Source: a virus
IMG/VR virus record: IMGVR_UViG_3300044684_000147
Location: 1 to 20,485 of that record
Length of the DNA stretch: 20,485 nucleotides
Direction: 5' to 3' (one strand)
Positions 11,574 through 19,763 of this stretch are shown here, piece after piece. A model generated the notes under the pieces. It made no database searches, was not told the origin of the DNA, and saw only the letters and a list, made by a program, of their open reading frames with translations. The stretch's first letter is position 1, and each line of letters opens with the position of its first letter. Made by a program: the position numbers and the translations under genes.

Positions 11574-11729
11574 TCACTTGTCCGGAGCGGCTCTGGATTG
11601 ATTCCATTCCTGCATGAACTCGAGAGCTCGTTTCACTGCCTGCTTGTCCAGCTGCTTAGACAGGACACTCTGTCTAATCTCCACCATCAGCTGTATATCA
11701 GGCTCGAGGAATTGTTCTTGGTTAGCCAT
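11574..11729 (-). CDS. Small helical protein, 51 aa
   Basis: ATG at 11727-11729 with a good AGAAGGA ribosome-binding site six bases upstream, inside the end of the phosphoesterase gene (overlap 8 bases). The stop TGA abuts the next gene's ATG. The product is helical and charged (LMVEIRQSVLSKQLDKQAVK, then RALEFMQEWNQSR). Tight packing and the ribosome-binding site make it a real gene, but I recognise no family. Confidence 0.7.
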   Translation of the reverse strand: MANQEQFLEPDIQLMVEIRQSVLSKQLDKQAVKRALEFMQEWNQSRAAPDK

Positions 11730-12486
11730 ATTTCCTTCTCAGGTAATCCATGCTCAGCGGCATAATGTCGTACATGCCGTTTTCAACTTCGTTCAGGACT
11801 ACAAGTCCTCTCCACTCCCCGTTTCCCTGGGCACCGCGATAACGTTCATCGTGAAGGTAGAAACTCCCTGCGACGAGTCCATGCCTGGTAAGTTTCCCGG
11901 GAAATTGCCGTATGCCGTAGAGCAAGCCCTGTTCGTGCCCCTGCACAAACGACTGGCCGATTTTGTTAAGTCTGTTATCAATGCTTCCGCCAATCGGTCG
12001 CCCGGAGTGTGTGTTAGCGAAATAGTGAGAGTAAGCAATTCCGTCTATCTCCACAATTTCTAGGAAAGAATGCCGCTCAAAAGTGTTCGTTTTGAGCTGA
12101 TCTAAAGAAATAACTCCGTCGAGCTTGGGTTCCTGTTGCAACCGTCTGGTAATCCTGTCTTCGTGATTACCGAATAGAAAATGTAACTCCGGTTCCCATC
12201 GCTTACGATGTCCGCTCCTTCTGCGGTCCATCTCAGTGAACATCGGATCAGTCAATACCATAAACTGATAATTGCCGAACTCGATATCTTCCTTGATACG
12301 CTTGCCTTCTGCTTCTGCACTTCCAGGAGCATTATGGCTAGACAAGCTAGGCATGTCCCACCAGTCACCGATTACGACAATCACATCAGGCATGTAGTCA
12401 ACGATTGCCTGTGCTGCCCATCCTATGTGCTCTGTTGGAACCCCTAGCCGTAGCTGTGTATCTGGAATGATTAGGTGCCGCCTCAC
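11722..12486 (-). CDS. Calcineurin-like metallophosphoesterase
   Basis: Di-metal phosphoesterase motifs appear in order: IIPDTQ (motif I, with Gln where DxH usually has His), IGDWWDMPS (GDxxD), LFGNHEDR (GNHE), YSHYF and QGHEQG (GH). The enzyme would hydrolyse phosphodiester or phosphomonoester bonds; substrates in phages range from DNA ends to cyclic nucleotides and are not evident here. I chose GTG at 12486 (254 residues). It overlaps the previous stop as GTGA, a junction type frequent in this phage, and has AAAGGA nine bases upstream. The frame is open to an ATG at 12546, which would overlap the upstream gene by 64 bases. Confidence 0.82.
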   Translation of the reverse strand: MRRHLIIPDTQLRLGVPTEHIGWAAQAIVDYMPDVIVVIGDWWDMPSLSSHNAPGSAEAEGKRIKEDIEFGNYQFMVLTDPMFTEMDRRRSGHRKRWEPELHFLFGNHEDRITRRLQQEPKLDGVISLDQLKTNTFERHSFLEIVEIDGIAYSHYFANTHSGRPIGGSIDNRLNKIGQSFVQGHEQGLLYGIRQFPGKLTRHGLVAGSFYLHDERYRGAQGNGEWRGLVVLNEVENGMYDIMPLSMDYLRRKYG

Positions 12487-12887
12487 TCCTGGCGTTCCTT
12501 TACGCCCGACCGCAAAAGTAGCTCGAGAGTAGCCATAGCGTTCCAAGCCCTATGAGCAGCATGGAGGAGACGGCTATCCTCAGCGTACAGCTCACCAGAA
12601 AGATGAGCGTCGGAGTGACGACCCAAAGCGTCTTCATAGCGGCCAGCCGCGCCTTCAACGCGCATCCAATTCTTATCGCTGTACTCAACTTTGTACTTCT
12701 CTTTCCCAAACCGGCTGACATTGGCAACGGCTGCCTTTGCCAGCGGAAAGTAGGCGTCAAAGCCCTGGGCTACTGGTGCTTTACCTGAATCGAACTTTTT
12801 TCCAGCCTCAGGCACATGCACTGAGCCGTTGGCTACCATCTGTAGGTTGCCCGGCTGTTGGGCTGCTTCTCTCAACACTTTCCCCAT
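12483..12887 (-). CDS. DUF5664 / dATP-dGTP diphosphohydrolase-like protein
   Basis: The product (134 residues from the chosen start) carries the signature KKFDSGKAPVAQGF, then AVANVSRFGKEKY, W-RVEGAAGRYEDALGRH and a helical LLHAAHRAWNAMATLELLLR. I know this as the dATP/dGTP diphosphohydrolase N-terminal-like family (DUF5664) of phages. Such proteins are thought to hydrolyse dNTPs to monophosphates and so shape nucleotide pools. The ATG at 12885-12887 has a strong GAGGAG ribosome-binding site. The frame is open to 12986, but that extension overlaps the zinc-finger gene deeply and looks non-coding. An HD phosphohydrolase in the same operon suggests a shared role in nucleotide metabolism. Activity is inferred. 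Confidence 0.72.
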   Translation of the reverse strand: MGKVLREAAQQPGNLQMVANGSVHVPEAGKKFDSGKAPVAQGFDAYFPLAKAAVANVSRFGKEKYKVEYSDKNWMRVEGAAGRYEDALGRHSDAHLSGELYAEDSRLLHAAHRAWNAMATLELLLRSGVKERQE

Positions 12888-13131
12888 CTGTCTCCTCTCT
12901 CGGAATCTTTCCCACTCCTCCGCATGTGTCGCAGCCAACGTTCTCACGAATGACTTGCTTACCTCTGCGGTGAATCCTATAGCCATAGCCCTTACAGCAC
13001 GGACACGTTACTGTGCTGGCGTTGTATGCTCGCTGTTCCGGAGTGCTCCACAGCTCCGGTAGCTTCCGTGGGTCGTAGCTGAATGCCTGATAGAACCCTG
13101 CTTCGTTTCTTGGACCGATTGGCTTGAACAT
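12808..13131 (-). CDS. DnaJ-like zinc-finger protein
   Basis: The 107-residue protein has two CxxCxGxG-type knuckles of the DnaJ zinc-finger kind: CPCCKGYG (from residue 43) and CDTCGGVG about 24 residues later, enough to bind one zinc. The N-terminus (PRNEAGFYQAFSYDPRKLPELW) looks folded. The C-terminal 25 residues are polar and overlap the next gene by 80 bases. It also overlaps the upstream basic protein's gene by 140 bases. Phages often carry such small zinc proteins without a J domain; a nucleic-acid-binding or chaperone-adaptor role is possible. ATG with a modest GAG ribosome-binding site. Confidence 0.68.
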   Translation of the reverse strand: MFKPIGPRNEAGFYQAFSYDPRKLPELWSTPEQRAYNASTVTCPCCKGYGYRIHRRGKQVIRENVGCDTCGGVGKIPREETDGESVERSSPTAGQPTDGSQRLSACA

Positions 13132-13345
13132 TTCGCTTTACTCGCAGATAGATACCCCTGAAGCTCTCGGGAGTCACCCGGTACTGAACAGCCTTTCCCT
13201 CCTGTAGCTCTCCATTCAGCGTACTGTCGTAGCGCTTGGAATCGACTAGACCGCGTATATAGGTAGTATCTAGAGCCGACGAGAATCGTTCACCTAGAGC
13301 TAGCCGGATATTCCGTCTAATGCGCTTCGCCTGCTTGTCGTTCAA
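12992..13345 (-). CDS. Basic small protein, unknown
   Basis: The 117-residue frame starts TTG at 13343-13345, overlapping the upstream stop as TTGA. The first 80 residues are basic and look folded (KQAKRIRRNIRLALGERF, then VTPESFRGIYLRVKRNVQANRS). The last 46 are read from DNA that also encodes the next protein's N-terminus and look like an out-of-frame tail. The gene may once have ended sooner. The charge suggests nucleic-acid binding, but no motif is recognised. Confidence 0.55.
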   Translation of the reverse strand: MNDKQAKRIRRNIRLALGERFSSALDTTYIRGLVDSKRYDSTLNGELQEGKAVQYRVTPESFRGIYLRVKRNVQANRSKKRSRVLSGIQLRPTEATGAVEHSGTASIQRQHSNVSVL

Positions 13346-13479
13346 AGCATCACCACAGCTGCTATATCCGCTATGGCATATCCGACAAATAGTCCCATTA
13401 GGGCATATTTACCGCTGCCATAGCCGTAGACAGCAAGCAGAATGTCTATGAGCGCTTTAACCCCTCCCGCCAGGATCAT
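13342..13479 (-). CDS. Small two-span membrane protein, 45 aa
   Basis: The ATG at 13477-13479 overlaps the resolvase stop as ATGA. TGA lies at 13342-13344, itself overlapped by the next TTG. Two hydrophobic segments (MILAGGVKALIDILLAVYGYG and ALMGLFVGYAIADIAAVVML) are joined by a Ser-Gly-Lys turn, a membrane hairpin. A longer frame to 13551 exists, but it runs into the resolvase gene and reads unlike protein. A membrane protein within replication genes could anchor the replisome or exclude other phages; this is a guess. Confidence 0.65.
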   Translation of the reverse strand: MILAGGVKALIDILLAVYGYGSGKYALMGLFVGYAIADIAAVVML

Positions 13480-14009
13480 CAGGCTACGTTCCAATCCGGC
13501 ACCCTCCCGGACCACACAACAGCCCTGACTCGTAGGTATTTCCTGGCCCATTCGGTGATGGTGAGCTTGGGAGTGACCCTGTAGTCGCGTTCAAAGATGA
13601 AGCGCAAATCAACATCCGGCCTGGCTTTTCGGAGACTACGGAGAAGCGAACGTTGCTCGGCCCGTAGATAGCCCTTAACCTCGACAAGATGACTTGCGGC
13701 TTGTAGTCCGCTGCGTTCCCTATCGTTTTCTGTACTAACAGAAAAGTCCGGGAGGTAGCTGTGTCTTTGAACCACTTCGCAAGAGTCGCATTTGGTGCAA
13801 GCACCGTTTCTAACGGCACTCGTATAAAATAGGCGATCTTGCTCTCCTGCTCGGCGGATGTTTTGTCCGCTCCGCTGGTACTCGAGGAAGACGGCATATT
13901 CAAGCTTGCTATCCCACTCTGTTCCGTCTGGCGCCAACCAGCGCATATCCCGTCGTTTTGTCCCAACCTTGCGGCCAGGAACGTCAAGCCTCTTACGTGC
14001 TTTCGGCAT
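13479..14009 (-). CDS. Endonuclease I-type Holliday junction resolvase
   Basis: The 176-residue protein matches the T7 gp3 (endonuclease I) plan: Glu37 in WDSKLEYAV, Asp88 in YLPDFSV, then Glu110-x-Lys112 in LVEVKGYL, followed by the helix LRSLRKARPDVDLRFIF and a TITEWARKYL segment. These are the metal-binding residues of this PD-(D/E)xK nuclease, which cleaves four-way and branched DNA and helps debranch replicating phage DNA. Between Glu37 and Asp88 there is an insertion with C71-x-x-C74-x-x-C77, absent from T7 endonuclease I as I remember it, which may bind metal. The ATG has AAGGAG two bases upstream, the AAG being part of the nested ORF's stop. Confidence 0.82.
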   Translation of the reverse strand: MPKARKRLDVPGRKVGTKRRDMRWLAPDGTEWDSKLEYAVFLEYQRSGQNIRRAGEQDRLFYTSAVRNGACTKCDSCEVVQRHSYLPDFSVSTENDRERSGLQAASHLVEVKGYLRAEQRSLLRSLRKARPDVDLRFIFERDYRVTPKLTITEWARKYLRVRAVVWSGRVPDWNVA

Positions 14010-14784
14010 AGCTCCTTATGAATTGCTCCGCGACTTGCGGGACGATTGCATTGCCGTAGCCCCTGAGCAGTCCCACGCGACCGGATACCCCATCAGCCAA
14101 CGGGAATGTGCCGGATTCAATTGGCCTATATTTCCCGTCTGTGCAGTAGATCCATTCGCAGATAGACGCGCCGCGTCTATCAATGTCAATCCGTCGTGAT
14201 GCTTGCTGTTCGGATTGTTTCGCTTTGCCGTGCGATTGGCCCCGGCCTTTGAGTCGTTTACCGTTGAAGTCGGCCAACCAGTAGAGCCGTTGCCGGATGT
14301 GCGGAGCACCGACGCCCGCCGCGCTAAGATCTGATGCCCCGAAGGAGTAGCCCTGTGCTTCCAAGTCAGCCTGAACAAGGTCGATCCAAGCGAGTCCAGC
14401 CTTGCTCGCAACCTGCTCTCCAAAAATGACTGTAGGCTTTTGCTGTTCGATGAGATGGAACCAGGCTGGCCACAGATGCCGCTCGTCAGCAAACCCTTTT
14501 CCTTTACCTGCCTGGCTGAAAGGTTGGCACGGGCAGCTACCTGTCCACACAGCCCTATCGTCTGGCCAGTCTGCAAGACGGAGTGCATAGCTCCATCCGC
14601 CGATACCGGCAAAGAAGTGATGCTGACTGAATCCATTCAGATCCGCGGGGTAGACATCTTCAATACTCCTCTCGTCAACTTCTCCGTAGGCAATCTGCTT
14701 GTCCTTAATCAGCTCGCGAAGCCAAGCAGCTGCTTTCGGATCATTCTCGTTGTAGTACGCCTTAGTGCGGCTTGAGCTGCCCAT
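13993..14784 (-). CDS. dcm: DNA cytosine-5 methyltransferase
   Basis: The enzyme transfers a methyl group from S-adenosylmethionine to C5 of cytosine in a short DNA site. Motifs in order (numbered from the chosen start): I FAGIGG (58-63), IV GSCPCQPFSQ with catalytic Cys86, VI GEQV (122-125, Gln where ENV is usual), VIII RQRLYW (164-169) and X GYGNAIVP (242-249). The target-recognition stretch between VIII and X is short (about 70 residues). I chose ATG at 14784, close before KAYYNENDP, which I recall as the usual N-terminus. A TTG at 14823 would add 13 residues. It probably protects phage DNA from host restriction. A 206-residue ORF is nested inside it in the +1 frame. Confidence 0.9.
   Translation of the reverse strand: MGSSSRTKAYYNENDPKAAAWLRELIKDKQIAYGEVDERSIEDVYPADLNGFSQHHFFAGIGGWSYALRLADWPDDRAVWTGSCPCQPFSQAGKGKGFADERHLWPAWFHLIEQQKPTVIFGEQVASKAGLAWIDLVQADLEAQGYSFGASDLSAAGVGAPHIRQRLYWLADFNGKRLKGRGQSHGKAKQSEQQASRRIDIDRRGASICEWIYCTDGKYRPIESGTFPLADGVSGRVGLLRGYGNAIVPQVAEQFIRSYAEST
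14016..14636 (-). CDS. Nested +1-frame gene inside the methyltransferase gene
   Basis: This 206-residue ORF lies wholly within the methyltransferase gene, from about its residue 50 to 256, shifted +1. Its motifs read like a real family I have met next to or over phage cytosine methyltransferases: FLESRLRARLDSLGSTLF (71-88), LTWKHRATPSG (90-100), GWPTSTVNDSKAG (120-132), LNPAHSRWLMGYP (173-185) and a basic SSRKSR end. The ATG has no good ribosome-binding site, so coupling or frameshifting may be needed. Its TAA forms part of the AAGGAG ribosome-binding site of the resolvase gene, a normal operon junction. The role is unknown; a methylation partner or an anti-restriction protein is conceivable. 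The alternative is a shadow ORF conserved only because the methyltransferase is. Confidence 0.5.
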   Translation of the reverse strand: MDSVSITSLPVSADGAMHSVLQTGQTIGLCGQVAARANLSARQVKEKGLLTSGICGQPGSISSNSKSLQSFLESRLRARLDSLGSTLFRLTWKHRATPSGHQILARRASVLRTSGNGSTGWPTSTVNDSKAGANRTAKRNNPNSKHHDGLTLIDAARLSANGSTAQTGNIGQLNPAHSRWLMGYPVAWDCSGATAMQSSRKSRSNS

Positions 14785-15418
14785 AGGCCCCCAACCAAAG
14801 CTCTTTGGCAGCTTTCCAATCAAGTCGAAGCAGCTTCCATCCTTTTTCCCGCAGCTCTAGAGCTTGCGGACGGATCTCGTAGGGGTCTACGAAGTCCATC
14901 CCCCTTTCCGGGATGAGCTCTGCAGCCTCGATGAACAGAGCTAGCCAGTCTGCCTTAGTAGCCTCTTGCGTCTTCTCGAGCGGCAGACCGAACGTCTGTC
15001 TAATGTCTTTGTCTAACTCCTTCTCGATGCGCCGCAGATCAGGCAAGAGTTGTTTGAATGGTGAGGAGACATCAGGTAGCACGCTTTCTGCAGCGTCATG
15101 CATAAGTCCCTCGAAGGGACTCCCCCCGGTGACATCCCGCATGAGGGAGGCAACAAGCACGGAGTGCTCTGCAACGGAGTAAAACGTATCCGCATGTCCT
15201 CGATAGCGCGCAGTCTGCGCCATGCTGTGAGCCATCCACCTAGGATTCCATGTAGGACGGTTGATATAAAATCTACCGCCCTGTGTGTGAATGTACGGAT
15301 CTTGAGGCGTCTCACTGCTGCTTCTTAGATTGGTGTAGTATTGGCTTTGCGAGGTAATATTCTTCTTGTCAAGTAGCACCCGTGAATTCCAGTGTCCTTC
15401 AACCGCCACGGAACACAT
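14762..15418 (-). CDS. HD-domain phosphohydrolase (YfbR-like)
   Basis: HD metal-binding residues are visible: the AHSMAQTARYRGH segment (63-75), His85 in YSVAEHSVLVA, His107-Asp108 in GLMHDAAES and Asp116 in LPDVSSP. The order and the GH-x(4)-YSVAEHS phrase match phage members of the YfbR 5'-deoxynucleotidase/dNTP hydrolase group, which dephosphorylate deoxynucleotides. The family core begins around residue 40 (GGRFYINRP), and the 40 residues before it are unlike other members, so the true start may be later; I see no better ribosome-binding site. It overlaps both neighbours (20 and 23 bases). Together with the DUF5664 gene it may control dNTP pools. Confidence 0.78.
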   Translation of the reverse strand: MCSVAVEGHWNSRVLLDKKNITSQSQYYTNLRSSSETPQDPYIHTQGGRFYINRPTWNPRWMAHSMAQTARYRGHADTFYSVAEHSVLVASLMRDVTGGSPFEGLMHDAAESVLPDVSSPFKQLLPDLRRIEKELDKDIRQTFGLPLEKTQEATKADWLALFIEAAELIPERGMDFVDPYEIRPQALELREKGWKLLRLDWKAAKELWLGAYGQLKPH

Positions 15419-15596
15419 CCCCGTTGAAGTATAGATTCATATCTGTCCTTGCGCGGTCCTGCAGCTCTCCGTTAATAGCAATCTCCAGCTGCGCGAGCTC
15501 AGTTGTGCTCATGTCCGGAATCGCTTCAATGATCACCTCGACAAGCGCATCATTCGCGAGCTCGTCAAGGTCAATAGTCACTTTCGCATTGCTCAA
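15399..15596 (-). CDS. Small acidic protein, unknown, 65 aa
   Basis: The TTG start at 15594-15596 lies in the 3' end of the exonuclease gene (overlap 26 bases) with a GAAGA just upstream. The product is acidic and helical in its first 50 residues (VTIDLDELANDALVEVIIE, then STTELAQLEIAINGELQDRAR), ending in NLYFNGDVFRGG. No family is recognised. Its position between exonuclease and HD genes, its size and its regular composition support a real gene. Confidence 0.62.
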   Translation of the reverse strand: MSNAKVTIDLDELANDALVEVIIEAIPDMSTTELAQLEIAINGELQDRARTDMNLYFNGDVFRGG

Positions 15597-16497
15597 TCTT
15601 CTTTCGCTCCACTCCTGCCGGCGCCCAAAGCACGCACGGCGTGTCTTGCATCCAAACTAGCTGTGCTGTCTCGAGAGCTACCTCTACAGACGGCTGCTCT
15701 CGATACGGACATGTCGAAAACTTCTTGCTCTTTTCGTACTCCTGGACCAGAGCCTGGAACATCTGAGTTTCCGAGAATCCCTGTCTAATCCACTCGTCTA
15801 CGATCTTTGGAGCTCTGTCCGGTCCTACCCTCCAACATCCTGGTATGTTGTCCGTAGGATCTCCTGCCAGGGCTTGAATCCAGAAAGCCCTATTGGCGTC
15901 ATCTTCTGACACGTCATAGGAAACCTTCTTTGCGTAGTCGTAGTGCCTGCCAGGTATCTGGTCTAAGTCCTTGTCTATCGTTGCAATGACGTAGGGAATC
16001 TTTTGGAATCTGTAACGATTAGCCCTGATGGCTATCTCGTCGTCCGCTTCCCTGGTCTCGACAATCACAGCCCCCCATCGGTCTACCATATAGTCGCGGA
16101 TGTTCTGGTAGTGGACTGGCCGTGGCATCTTGCGATTTCCCTTGTACGGAGCCTGCTTGGCTATCGCATGCCTGAAATTTCCCTTGCCCATGCTGTCAGA
16201 CAGAATGATGTGTAAATCATCGCTATGAGCTACTCGCCCAATCTCCTGCAGCAGGGCCTTCGTGCTGTGCAGAGCATTTTCTATCGGCTCTGGCGTGACT
16301 TCCTCGTCTTCAGCGACTATGACGCTACCGGGATGTTCTCGTAGAAAGTCGTTCCGCTCAGTCTTACTGGTAAAGCGGGTAGCCTCCATGGAGCCATCTG
16401 GCATTTCGATAACACAATGGAGAATCCGTGACTGTGATGCATACCCAATTCGGTAAACAATCGGATCTCCGTCAACCAATACTTGAGTCGCGCTCAA
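15571..16497 (-). CDS. 5'-3' exonuclease, FEN/T7 gp6-like
   Basis: This 308-residue enzyme would remove RNA primers or 5' flaps and degrade DNA during replication and recombination. Signature residues are Asp9 and Asp11 in VDGDP, the basic YKGNR (118-122), the acidic clusters EADDE (150-154) and DKDLDQ (175-180), and GDPTDNIPG (212-220) followed by an H3TH-like RVGPDRAPKIV. These are the metal ligands and helix-hairpin of the PIN-like FEN family as found in T7 gp6 and T4 RNase H. The start is TTG at 16497, with GGAG ten bases upstream, inside the previous gene (26-base overlap). It shares an operon with the polymerase. Confidence 0.87.
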   Translation of the reverse strand: MSATQVLVDGDPIVYRIGYASQSRILHCVIEMPDGSMEATRFTSKTERNDFLREHPGSVIVAEDEEVTPEPIENALHSTKALLQEIGRVAHSDDLHIILSDSMGKGNFRHAIAKQAPYKGNRKMPRPVHYQNIRDYMVDRWGAVIVETREADDEIAIRANRYRFQKIPYVIATIDKDLDQIPGRHYDYAKKVSYDVSEDDANRAFWIQALAGDPTDNIPGCWRVGPDRAPKIVDEWIRQGFSETQMFQALVQEYEKSKKFSTCPYREQPSVEVALETAQLVWMQDTPCVLWAPAGVERKKIEQCESDY

Positions 16498-16690
16498 GCT
16501 CTGCTTGCTCCAGTTCTTCCTCCAGTTCTTCCCGCTGTATCAAGTCTAGTTGGAGTAGATTCGTAGCCTGGTGTATAGCCTCTACTCCCAATTCCTGAGC
16601 CTTACGTTTCCGCGCGCCAGAGTCGGCAATCAAGGTGCCAACCATTGAAGCAAGCAGCATCGTCTGAACGCGTTCGAAGTCTGTTAGCAT
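16472..16690 (-). CDS. Small helical charged protein, 72 aa
   Basis: The ATG overlaps the previous stop (TAATG). The product has an Ala/Met/Leu-rich first part (RVQTMLLASMVGTLIADSG), a basic turn (ARKRKAQELG) and a strongly acidic C-terminal helix (REELEEELEQAELERD) likely to form a coiled coil. No family is recognised. It sits between the polymerase/SSB block and the exonuclease. Confidence 0.65.
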   Translation of the reverse strand: MLTDFERVQTMLLASMVGTLIADSGARKRKAQELGVEAIHQATNLLQLDLIQREELEEELEQAELERDSSIG

Positions 16691-17037
16691 TACTGAAACC
16701 TCGGGATACTCAATCCATTCCCTGTCTGTTCTTCCTGCTTCTTCTCTAGCTTGTAGCTACGGGCTGCATACTCCTGTGATGCATCCGTTGCGTTCTGCAG
16801 CTCTACTTGGGCCTGCACTGTGTGCGCAATGGCCTGTCCAAGTCCCGAAGCAGTACCGTAGATAATCCCGTGCTTCTTGTGCTGAATGATGTACCGCACC
16901 AGCAGCTCCGGCGCTGTCCCTTCAGGCCCAGACGATAGCCGGCCCAAAACGACTCGATAGTCTGGAGTTTCAAACACTACATTTAGCCGCTCTGCCTGAG
17001 CGGGAGCCTGCCCGAATCCTTCTTTCTTCTCAGCCAT
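16690..17037 (-). CDS. Unknown replication-region protein, 115 aa
   Basis: The ATG has a strong GGAGGT ribosome-binding site, itself folded in a small hairpin. Residues 18-60 form alternating strands (LNVVFETPDYRVVLGRLSSG, then LLVRYIIQHKKHGIIYG), followed by a helix (GLGQAIAHTVQAQVELQ) and a polar tail (KKQEEQTGNG). I recognise no family. It stands between the SSB-like gene (48-base gap, the largest in this unit) and the exonuclease module. The ribosome-binding site hairpin suggests translational control. Confidence 0.68.
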   Translation of the reverse strand: MAEKKEGFGQAPAQAERLNVVFETPDYRVVLGRLSSGPEGTAPELLVRYIIQHKKHGIIYGTASGLGQAIAHTVQAQVELQNATDASQEYAARSYKLEKKQEEQTGNGLSIPRFQ

Positions 17038-17038
17038 T

Positions 17039-17053
17039 GTTACCTCCGGTAAC
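17039..17053 (-). promoter_or_regulatory. Hairpin enclosing a Shine-Dalgarno sequence
   Basis: On the - strand GTTACC-GGA-GGTAAC is a perfect 6-bp stem with a three-base loop. The GGAGGT ribosome-binding site of the downstream ATG (17035-17037) is formed by the loop and the start of the 3' arm, and the stem ends two bases before the ATG. Folding would hide it from ribosomes, the layout of a translational operator. Confidence 0.5.
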
Positions 17054-17085
17054 TAGGTTGCTAACTACGACTATATTAGCTGCCA

Positions 17086-17724
17086 TCAATACTCACTCCC
17101 GTTGCTCGGCTGTTCCTGTTTCTTTCCATCTGCTGGAGGAATCCCGTCTGCTGCTGAGGTGTCTACAATGCCAGCATCCGCAACATGCTGAAGAACTCGG
17201 CCAGTCAACACATCGTTGTAGAACTTGACGGTTTCCTTATCGATTGACGCACTGATTTCTGCATAGCGCTGAGCCTGTCCGGCCTTTGTCTTCGCCGAGC
17301 TCATGGGCAATCCATCGTGCTGCAGGAGCAGCCCAATCTTCGCAATAGCCATTTCCTGGCTGTGCTGCCAAACGATCTGGCCCTGTCTATCAGTCGCTGA
17401 GCCTTGCTGCGCTCCGGTCGAGGTGGCAGCAGCTTGGCTAGCGCCAGACTGCGCCCCATTTGTCTGCTGATTTCCTTGGACCACAGACTTGGAATGAACA
17501 ATGCGTCCACTTCCTTCGACGTAGACAAGGAATCCGTTTTTGTCCTTGTCTGCTGAGACGTTGATTCTGTCTCCTTCTTCAAACGGAGGCTCCTTATCGA
17601 ATCCGAATGTAATCCAGGTCTCTTCTCCACTATCCTGGATCAGTAGGAAGCTGTAGACCGTGCCAGACTTACGCCCTTTGTAGGGCTTAGCCACCAGCTT
17701 TTTAACAACGCCTTCTAACTGCAT
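17086..17724 (-). CDS. OB-fold single-stranded DNA-binding-like protein
   Basis: The 212-residue protein begins with an OB-fold-like strand pattern (LEGVVKKLVAKPYKGRKSG, TVYSFLLIQ, WITFGF, EGDRINVSADKDKNGFLVYVEG; residues 3-73). It continues with a Gln/Ala/Ser/Gly-rich flexible linker (80-115) and a C-terminal helical region. This is the plan of many phage ssDNA-binding proteins, though the tail lacks the acidic DDDIPF-type end. It overlaps the polymerase stop (TAATG), and SSB next to polymerase is common. It would coat unwound DNA at the fork. No sequence signature proves it; a different OB-fold role is possible. Confidence 0.6.
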   Translation of the reverse strand: MQLEGVVKKLVAKPYKGRKSGTVYSFLLIQDSGEETWITFGFDKEPPFEEGDRINVSADKDKNGFLVYVEGSGRIVHSKSVVQGNQQTNGAQSGASQAAATSTGAQQGSATDRQGQIVWQHSQEMAIAKIGLLLQHDGLPMSSAKTKAGQAQRYAEISASIDKETVKFYNDVLTGRVLQHVADAGIVDTSAADGIPPADGKKQEQPSNGSEY

Positions 17725-19763
17725 TACTTTCGTTTCACCTCTCTACCGTCTCTGTAAATATCCCAACTTTCCTCAGGGCCTTCGCCCCAATGCTCTCCAA
17801 TCTTTAGACCGATCCCTAGCGGTACCTTGTCGAATTCAAATCCGTAGACTTTGCTCAGGTAGTTGTAGACATCGTGTGTGAACGCTTGCTTGCTGAGCCT
17901 CTTAAAGTCCTGTTGCGCTTCAGGATGGATCTCACTCGGCGCTGAGTCGTGGACAAGGTTGACAATCCGAATTCGTTCATCAAGTCCCTCAGCACCGATT
18001 CGATGCCATAGGTATACAACCGCAATTGGTACAATTTCGGCTGTAGCGAGCGCTTGAACCGGGTAGTTGTCAACTGCTGACTCGACGTTAACTCTACCTC
18101 TTGAATCGCGTCGCGCAGTAGGCCAGTAGTAAATAAGGCCCCAGGGAGTGACAAGTCGCTTTGTTTCGACTGCTTCATTTACCCATTGCTCCTGAGTCTT
18201 AGCAATGCCGTGATATCGGTTGCGGAAGTAAGCGTAATAACGCTCCTGCTCAGGCGTACCATACTTCCCTCCGTAGAGCGGTTTGTAAGTGTCAGGTTTG
18301 GCAAGCTGGCGCCAGTCGTCCCGGCCCATTGCTTGAGCCTCCTTCTTTTCTCGCTTAACATCGTCGATACTGCAGTTATGCAGCACGGAGGCTGTGAGTA
18401 GATGGGCGTCAAAAGTAGGATCTGTAATATCCGCAATGGCTTGCTCGTCATTCCCAAGGACGGCTGCCACTCTAAACTCAATCTGGCTACCATCAGGCTC
18501 TCCTATTAGCCATCCTGGACGCTTTGCTCGTAAGAGCTTCTTCAGCAGCCGGGGGAAGTTCTGGAACTGCACACGGCGCTCAATAGGCTTTCCAGAATCA
18601 TCCAGCTGATTGCGAAATACGAGAGGTACGCCAGAACTACTAGTGCGATGAGTCGCCGTTCTTGTCTGGTTGATTTCTCCGTAGAAGACTCCGCCATACT
18701 CCTCCGCTACTCCCCTGAAGAATTCAAGATTTTTAGACAGGATTGCCTGAGTCTTTCCAAGCTCTTTGCGGAGAGACAAGAAAGCTCGTTGTCTAGCTGT
18801 TGTTGCAGTGAGCTTATCGAGAGTCTTGTTATCTGTGAGAGGCTGACCGTCCGGAAACTGCTTGGACGGGGCGTTGCGCTTTGGCTCTCCTTGCTTGTTA
18901 GCGAGCTCCTTAAATCCAAGTCCTCCCTCCTTCGGGCTGGAGTAGAGAAACTTGGCCATCTGGGGTACAGAGCGCGGATTAATTCCTCCGGTGAGCTTGT
19001 CCATTTCTGCAAGCTGCTCAACCAATTTGGCGGAATATTTCTTATACTCGGCATTGACAGCCTCCGGATCTACCGCCATTCCTTCCTGCTCAATATCCGC
19101 AAGGACAGGCGTCAGCAGGCACCGCGTGAACTGAACAGGAAGCAGCCCACGCTTCTGCAGCTCTATCCGCTGAGATAAAAACACCTGCTCAGTAGTTTCT
19201 ACGTCCTGCTGGCACCTGCCCTGCAGCCATGGCCGAGGGATAGACACGGGATTGATCCCATTGTGTATCATGATATCTACGGCCGGATCTTTAACCGGTA
19301 GACCGCGACGTCTACAAACGGTGTCTAGGTTAACGCTTCGTGGAGGCATCCCTAGCTCGGCGCTTCCAGCAACTAGATTGCCTAGCAACACATACTCGCC
19401 AAGCATTGTGTCAAACACTAGTATCTGCCGTAGATCGGCCCCCATCCGTTTGAGCCATCCGAGCTCGTACTTGCAGCCGTGGCAGACGAGGAAATCAGCT
19501 AGGCTAATCGCATGCAGTAGATTGGACTGCTCGAGCTCATTACCCCACTCGCATTTGACAGAGGTGGAGCGATGTAGAAGGTTATTCCAAGGATGGCCCG
19601 GCCCTGCGTTCCAGCAAGCCAGTAGCAACTGATTGTCCTTGTGGACAGGGTGTCCATAGTCTCCGTGGCTTGTGTCTGTCTCGAAGTCCAAAACAACGTA
19701 GTTGTTACTGAGAAATATTTCCGGATTTAGATCCGTCAGAAACTTCGGCAACGATCTCTGCAT
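17724..19763 (-). CDS. polA: DNA polymerase, family A, with 3'-5' exonuclease domain
   Basis: This 679-residue replicative polymerase has an N-terminal proofreading domain and no 5'-3' exonuclease (supplied by the separate FEN gene). Exo I is VLDFETD (Asp26, Glu28), exo II HGCKYELGW (Glu100 where Asp is common) and exo III RCQQDVE (Asp187, with Arg at the usual Tyr position). Polymerase motif A is DGSQIEFR (Asp424, Glu429). Motif B is R485-x3-K489-x3-Y493-x3-Y497G. The PVQALATAEI helix has Gln570. Motif C is VHDS (His605, Asp606, Ser607 where Glu is canonical). The ATG has AAGGG six bases upstream and overlaps the previous gene by 59 bases. Confidence 0.93.
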   Translation of the reverse strand: MQRSLPKFLTDLNPEIFLSNNYVVLDFETDTSHGDYGHPVHKDNQLLLACWNAGPGHPWNNLLHRSTSVKCEWGNELEQSNLLHAISLADFLVCHGCKYELGWLKRMGADLRQILVFDTMLGEYVLLGNLVAGSAELGMPPRSVNLDTVCRRRGLPVKDPAVDIMIHNGINPVSIPRPWLQGRCQQDVETTEQVFLSQRIELQKRGLLPVQFTRCLLTPVLADIEQEGMAVDPEAVNAEYKKYSAKLVEQLAEMDKLTGGINPRSVPQMAKFLYSSPKEGGLGFKELANKQGEPKRNAPSKQFPDGQPLTDNKTLDKLTATTARQRAFLSLRKELGKTQAILSKNLEFFRGVAEEYGGVFYGEINQTRTATHRTSSSGVPLVFRNQLDDSGKPIERRVQFQNFPRLLKKLLRAKRPGWLIGEPDGSQIEFRVAAVLGNDEQAIADITDPTFDAHLLTASVLHNCSIDDVKREKKEAQAMGRDDWRQLAKPDTYKPLYGGKYGTPEQERYYAYFRNRYHGIAKTQEQWVNEAVETKRLVTPWGLIYYWPTARRDSRGRVNVESAVDNYPVQALATAEIVPIAVVYLWHRIGAEGLDERIRIVNLVHDSAPSEIHPEAQQDFKRLSKQAFTHDVYNYLSKVYGFEFDKVPLGIGLKIGEHWGEGPEESWDIYRDGREVKRK

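Follow-up and report, generated by a model that had tools for sequence, protein, structure and literature searches.

The window analysed here is the complete stretch of 20,485 nucleotides of the IMG/VR virus record IMGVR_UViG_3300044684_000147. On its minus strand, replication and nucleotide genes (positions 11722-19763) surround a gene for a cytosine-C5 DNA methyltransferase, here called M; the neighbours encode a metallophosphoesterase, dATP/dGTP diphosphohydrolase-like and 5'-deoxynucleotidase-like proteins, a 5'-3' exonuclease and a family A DNA polymerase. An open reading frame of 206 codons, here called N, lies wholly within the M ORF in the +1 phase, as the initial annotation had described and the ORF coordinates confirm, and the four motif blocks named there were all found in N (Table 1). 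That annotation missed both the identity of the pair as a split C5-methyltransferase and a TGA codon ahead of the N start. The TAA of N (14016-14018) does overlap the AAGGAG (14012-14017) of the following gene, which starts at ATG 14009; the spacing between this AAGGAG and the ATG is just 2 bases. The following gene (13479-14009, minus strand) probably encodes an endonuclease (phrog_945, E=3e-10).

M matches PF00145 (E=8e-16) and phrog_363 (E=3e-79), and in the M comparison HhaI was matched over residues 90-187. Its predicted structure finds HaeIII/HhaI methyltransferases in Foldseek at E~4e-8, with a confident catalytic core and motif X (the motif X helix has a pLDDT of 92) and low confidence for residues ~195-257. 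M thus has the SAM-binding and catalytic motifs and the fold of the C5-methyltransferases (PF00145). Judged from relatives, its start is likely to be ATG 14784 (MGSSSRTKAYYNEND). M contains motifs I-VIII and X, and its own frame lacks motif IX. The PF00145 match stops at profile position 181 of 324, an observation that is weak alone (the match of the single-chain enzyme of phage Fancypants stops at 161). Among 154 nested loci, the motif IX pattern was found in the +1 frame in 127 and in the M frame in two.

N matches two PHROGs profiles labelled as DNA methyltransferase, phrog_1008 (E=1.5e-22; profile positions 22-158, plus 252-281) and phrog_31772 (E=6e-9). No match to N was found in Pfam and NCBIfam, nor in PDB sequence searches with N and with an N profile. 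The LTWKHRATPSG block contains W92, which is invariant or nearly so, and the block LNPAHSRWLMGYPVAW contains the near-invariant residues P175, W180, L181, M182, G183, P185 and W188 (61 sequences). The latter is assigned as motif IX by pattern and position, without a significant match to a solved structure. Modelled alone with AlphaFold, N gives a poor prediction (mean pLDDT 62, pTM 0.24), with a confident hairpin at residues 88-110 and short helices; no structural match to it was found, and the fold search was uninformative. An obligate subunit may fail to fold alone, but the poor model lends no support to a subunit role.

Table 1. Features of the overlapping M and N genes, in window coordinates
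Feature	Position	Strand	Basis
M (alpha), cytosine-C5 DNA methyltransferase catalytic chain, ORF from TTG 14823	13993..14823	(-)	PF00145, phrog_363
M motif I, FFAGIGG	14596..14616	(-)	relatives
M motif IV, PCQP, catalytic Cys	14521..14532	(-)	invariant in A2 and A4
M motif VIII, RQRLYW	14278..14295	(-)	relatives
M motif X (YGNAIVPQVAEQFI), immediately after the N motif IX codons	14017..14058	(-)	conserved in A2 and A4
N (beta), nested +1-frame ORF, 206 codons, ATG to TAA	14016..14636	(-)	sequence, homologues, PHROGs profiles
Conserved N start, ATG 14655-14657, reading ATG TCT ACC CCG CGG ATC TGA	14637..14657	(-)	sequence, relatives
Ribosome-binding-site-like GAGAGGAG before the conserved N start	14666..14673	(-)	sequence
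N LTWKHRATPSG block, residues 88-110, predicted beta-hairpin	14307..14375	(-)	pLDDT ~90
N motif IX-like block LNPAHSRWLMGYPVAW, residues 173-188	14073..14120	(-)	pattern and position
N core, residues 39-206, under amino-acid selection	14019..14522	(-)	synonymous-site ratio; conservative +1 replacements

Openness and constraint of the +1 frame

Shuffling of synonymous codons, preserving the M protein and its codon usage, left the +1 frame of the window open over 205 codons in about 5% of cases, and over a core of 177 codons in 26%. By length alone the case for N is weak; it is conservation that makes it compelling. Related loci were fetched with M alone, to avoid choosing them through N, which gave 84 usable diverged representatives (<75% identity) in which stops were counted between two M landmarks. 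The +1 frame is open in all 84, with 0 stops against 196 expected, whereas the +2 control frame of the same representatives contains more stops than expected (851 versus 760). Upstream of N, the +1 frame has 150 stops versus 120 expected; over N residues 1-38 it has 0 versus 24, and over two segments of the N core 0 versus 134 and 8 versus 124. Those 8 core stops are confined to three loci, each carrying an HNH insertion or an indel. As the representatives share ancestry, these stop counts are not independent trials. Stops in the N frame of relatives, which would have spoken against the gene, are essentially absent.

Selection was evaluated at M codons with an unchanged amino acid, as the ratio of third-base identity to the expectation from codon usage. 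This ratio rises from 1.07 before N to 1.66 across it and falls to 1.03 past the N stop, so that the excess constraint at M synonymous sites looked for in relatives is clear. On a finer scale, it is ~1.0-1.3 over N residues 1-38, reaches 2.2 at residue 39, remains mostly at 1.4-2.8 over the core with a peak of 2.5-2.8 at LNPAHSRWLMGYPVAW, and is 1.0 after the N stop. Changes that are synonymous in M are conservative in N within residues 39-205 only (+0.27 BLOSUM62 units, versus -0.01 to -0.03 elsewhere), and the constraint therefore falls on the N protein, not just on the DNA or RNA. Judged from these comparisons, N is a real gene with a protein product that is made and under selection. The dual-coding reading of the initial annotation is thus upheld, since relatives selected through M keep the +1 frame and M synonymous sites are over-conserved.

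Initiation of the nested gene

In relatives, a stop shortly before N usually closes its frame, which then opens at either of two alternative ATGs, both of which arise from Asp codons of M; the window has the second one (14657). An ATG at the conserved or neighbouring position is present in 74 of 85 representatives, and a Shine-Dalgarno-like 4-mer in 53. The ATG alone is just moderately enriched, because 42% of all Asp codons are GAT. While N was rightly recognized as a gene, the family start is not the ATG at 14636 proposed at first, but usually lies seven codons upstream, at ATG 14657.

In the window, this conserved start is followed after six codons by an in-frame TGA (14637-14639) that abuts ATG 14636. 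The TGA is there because the Leu-Asn codons of a DLNG sequence in M create it. Such a stop-restart layout is rare among relatives, with 0.004 stops per codon in that stretch. Since the TGA cuts the conserved start directly before ATG 14636, N probably needs re-initiation in this phage, for which the TGA-ATG junction would offer the simplest route. In gp58 of phage N15, a stop also lies within the upstream N frame and N opens later, an indication that N can do without its first ~40 residues. A TTG within N (at residue 49, present in 57 of the 85 representatives) was considered as the sole start, and was rejected since constraint begins at residue 39.

Related enzymes and the role of N

The C-terminal half of N is found as a separate gene in three phages (LHTSCC gp80, KingMidas gp70 and JaNo gp80). 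In LHTSCC and KingMidas, the catalytic gene and this second gene share only 26 bases or do not overlap; the second gene contains motif X as well as the motif IX block and LPTP repeats. Two further C5-methyltransferases, Fancypants gp73 (Mycobacterium phage) and SchottB gp4 (Gordonia phage), have a motif IX-like block (EWMMG.P.GWV) in frame between motifs VIII and X, in Fancypants together with LPTP repeats. These two enzymes are single chains with the N-like region in the catalytic frame, whereas the window has two ORFs. In the independently built PHROGs, a single family, phrog_1008, unites the nested (K1G ORF30, E=1e-55; Arcticfreeze gp57, 6e-72), free-standing (LHTSCC gp80, 6e-80) and fused (C-terminus of Fancypants gp73, 1e-48) versions. 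Homologues of N outside the overlap thus exist for its C-terminal half, as a separate gene or an in-frame fusion, but not for full-length N.

A close counterpart is found in Escherichia phage K1G, where ORF31/ORF30 (ADA82277/ADA82276) are nested in +1 in the same manner and are annotated as separate genes. They are labelled 'C-specific methylase' and 'Mte8-like protein', in a record without function, and in the literature we found 'Mte8' in one passing mention without function (PMC5582158). K1G N is 42% identical to window N and has the conserved ATG start without the TGA that interrupts N in the window.

The window fits the architecture of the methyltransferase M.EcoHK31I on every feature tested. 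Nesting of the small-chain gene in the +1 frame is observed in the window; in M.EcoHK31I, the gene for beta reportedly lies within that for alpha and is read in a different frame, and beta is reportedly 176 residues long. With 206 residues, window N is somewhat longer. The two pairs divide the motifs between their chains in the same way, when compared by described architecture. According to the passages on M.EcoHK31I (YGGCCR) in PMC3404938, citing Lee, Kam & Shaw 1995, the enzyme consists of two polypeptides, of which the large one carries motifs I-VIII and X and the small one motif IX. M.EcoHK31I belongs to a restriction-modification system, whereas M and N lie in a phage replication cluster. 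A search for its sequence via plasmids and E. coli genomes gave phage, prophage and phage-plasmid-like copies only, among those examined; the five E. coli relatives examined are prophage genes and not the M.EcoHK31I restriction-modification system. M.AquI (CYCGRG) is likewise a C5-methyltransferase split in two polypeptides, with motifs IX and X together in the second subunit (PMC3404938). LHTSCC gp81/gp80 and KingMidas gp69/gp70 resemble this type of split; the window, where motif X is in the M frame, does not.

We consider it very probable that M and N make up a two-polypeptide cytosine-C5 DNA methyltransferase of the M.EcoHK31I type, with N as its small (beta) subunit. M (alpha) would bind S-adenosylmethionine and catalyse the reaction with motifs I-VIII and X, while lacking, in its own frame, both motif IX and an ordered target-recognition domain. 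From a separate start within M, the +1 frame is translated into N (beta), which would provide motif IX and probably also a DNA-recognition segment, and may in this way set the specificity. The two chains would form a single active enzyme for methylation of the phage genome, presumably as protection against host restriction. What counts against this reading is the poor N model, the assignment of motif IX by pattern and position, the interruption of the N start in the window by TGA, and the statement in PMC3404938 that the predicted target-recognition domain of M.EcoHK31I is in the large subunit, not in the small one.

The WPTP/LTWK region of N is probably involved in target recognition. A stronger proposal is that N is the specificity subunit itself, and that a large share of phage C5-methyltransferases have their entire target-recognition domain encoded in the +1 frame of the catalytic gene, with M residues ~195-257 disordered and kept open mainly to encode N. 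We regard this as tentative, its chances falling slightly short of even. If true, this overlap would rank with the most widespread of the known long ones on a single strand, and actinophages would have retained the N domain in free-standing and single-chain states.

N could instead overlap M as a real gene whose product acts independently, such as a regulator or an anti-defence factor. It is always nested in M with a start of its own, and alone it has neither a Pfam nor a structural match. However, N has the motif IX block that is absent from M, its C-terminal relatives are fused to catalytic domains or follow them directly, and no N without M was found among the loci retrieved through N or M, which makes an independent role improbable. 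The initial annotation had also considered N as the C-terminus of a trans-frame product, reached from M by +1 ribosomal frameshifting. The +1 phase and the interrupted N start in the window would be in line with this, but the N frame is closed upstream (150 versus 120 expected stops) and opens at a common ATG (74/85), as a gene with its own ATG and Shine-Dalgarno-like sites. It is moreover open from residue 1 and constrained from residue ~39, well ahead of any point at which shifting could yield a sensible enzyme, and an earlier shift would lose the catalytic motifs VI-VIII; frameshifting is thus unsupported, and we consider it very improbable. That the +1 frame is a compositional by-product of high G+C and a conserved M, with no N protein, is barely conceivable, for although its openness in the window is weakly unlikely (P about 0.05 to 0.26), the lack of stops in the 84 M-selected representatives, the end of constraint at the N stop and the conservative replacements in N reject a chance ORF.

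Distribution and annotation

The nested arrangement is real and widespread in phages, and its precedent, M.EcoHK31I, has been known since 1995. By tblastn, the N frame was found in 228 phage records and 16 plasmid records; in IMG/VR, a simple search gave 57 loci, and a profile search at least 580 contigs. The 154-locus set, defined by N-profile matches on ORFs overlapping an M ORF and including broken or indel-bearing loci, contains 318 frame pairings, of which 310 are +1. This breadth is the point of interest: the architecture of the 1995 biochemical precedent proves to be a common one, with a selected nested gene in hundreds of phage and prophage methyltransferases. The nested gene is mostly omitted by annotation. 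Nested pairs are annotated in some public records (K1G ORF30/31, Arcticfreeze 56/57), but most list M alone, and in the five E. coli prophage loci examined N is open in all and annotated in none. M cloned without N would probably be inactive, leading to wrong conclusions on methylation. Single-chain, split and nested forms together offer a natural series for the origin of a long dual-coding gene.

Several loci deviate from the common arrangement. In a prophage of E. coli EC20 (L315:2511-3722), the RefSeq methyltransferase consists of two incomplete pseudogenes, while M is open over 404 codons and N over 343; the pseudogene call is possibly false. At two loci (L264:3291-3779 and L276:3657-4166), ORFs resembling HNH endonucleases (weak matches, E 0.006 and 0.0002, respectively) start directly past the N stop, between N motif IX and M motif X, with the M frame open throughout. 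Single-base shifts bring the C-terminal part of N into the M frame at two loci (L056 and L286), and the M C-terminus into the N frame at another (L034), by sequencing error or natural fusion. On a Klebsiella aerogenes plasmid (L060:4841-6019), M and N are broken over several frames, in either a decayed copy or an error-rich assembly. Finally, among Mycobacterium cheoctoviruses (L148 and L149), the enzyme is a single chain in Fancypants and nested in Bubbles123. Its place in the two genomes is similar, with a helicase, another methylase and two small ORFs upstream.
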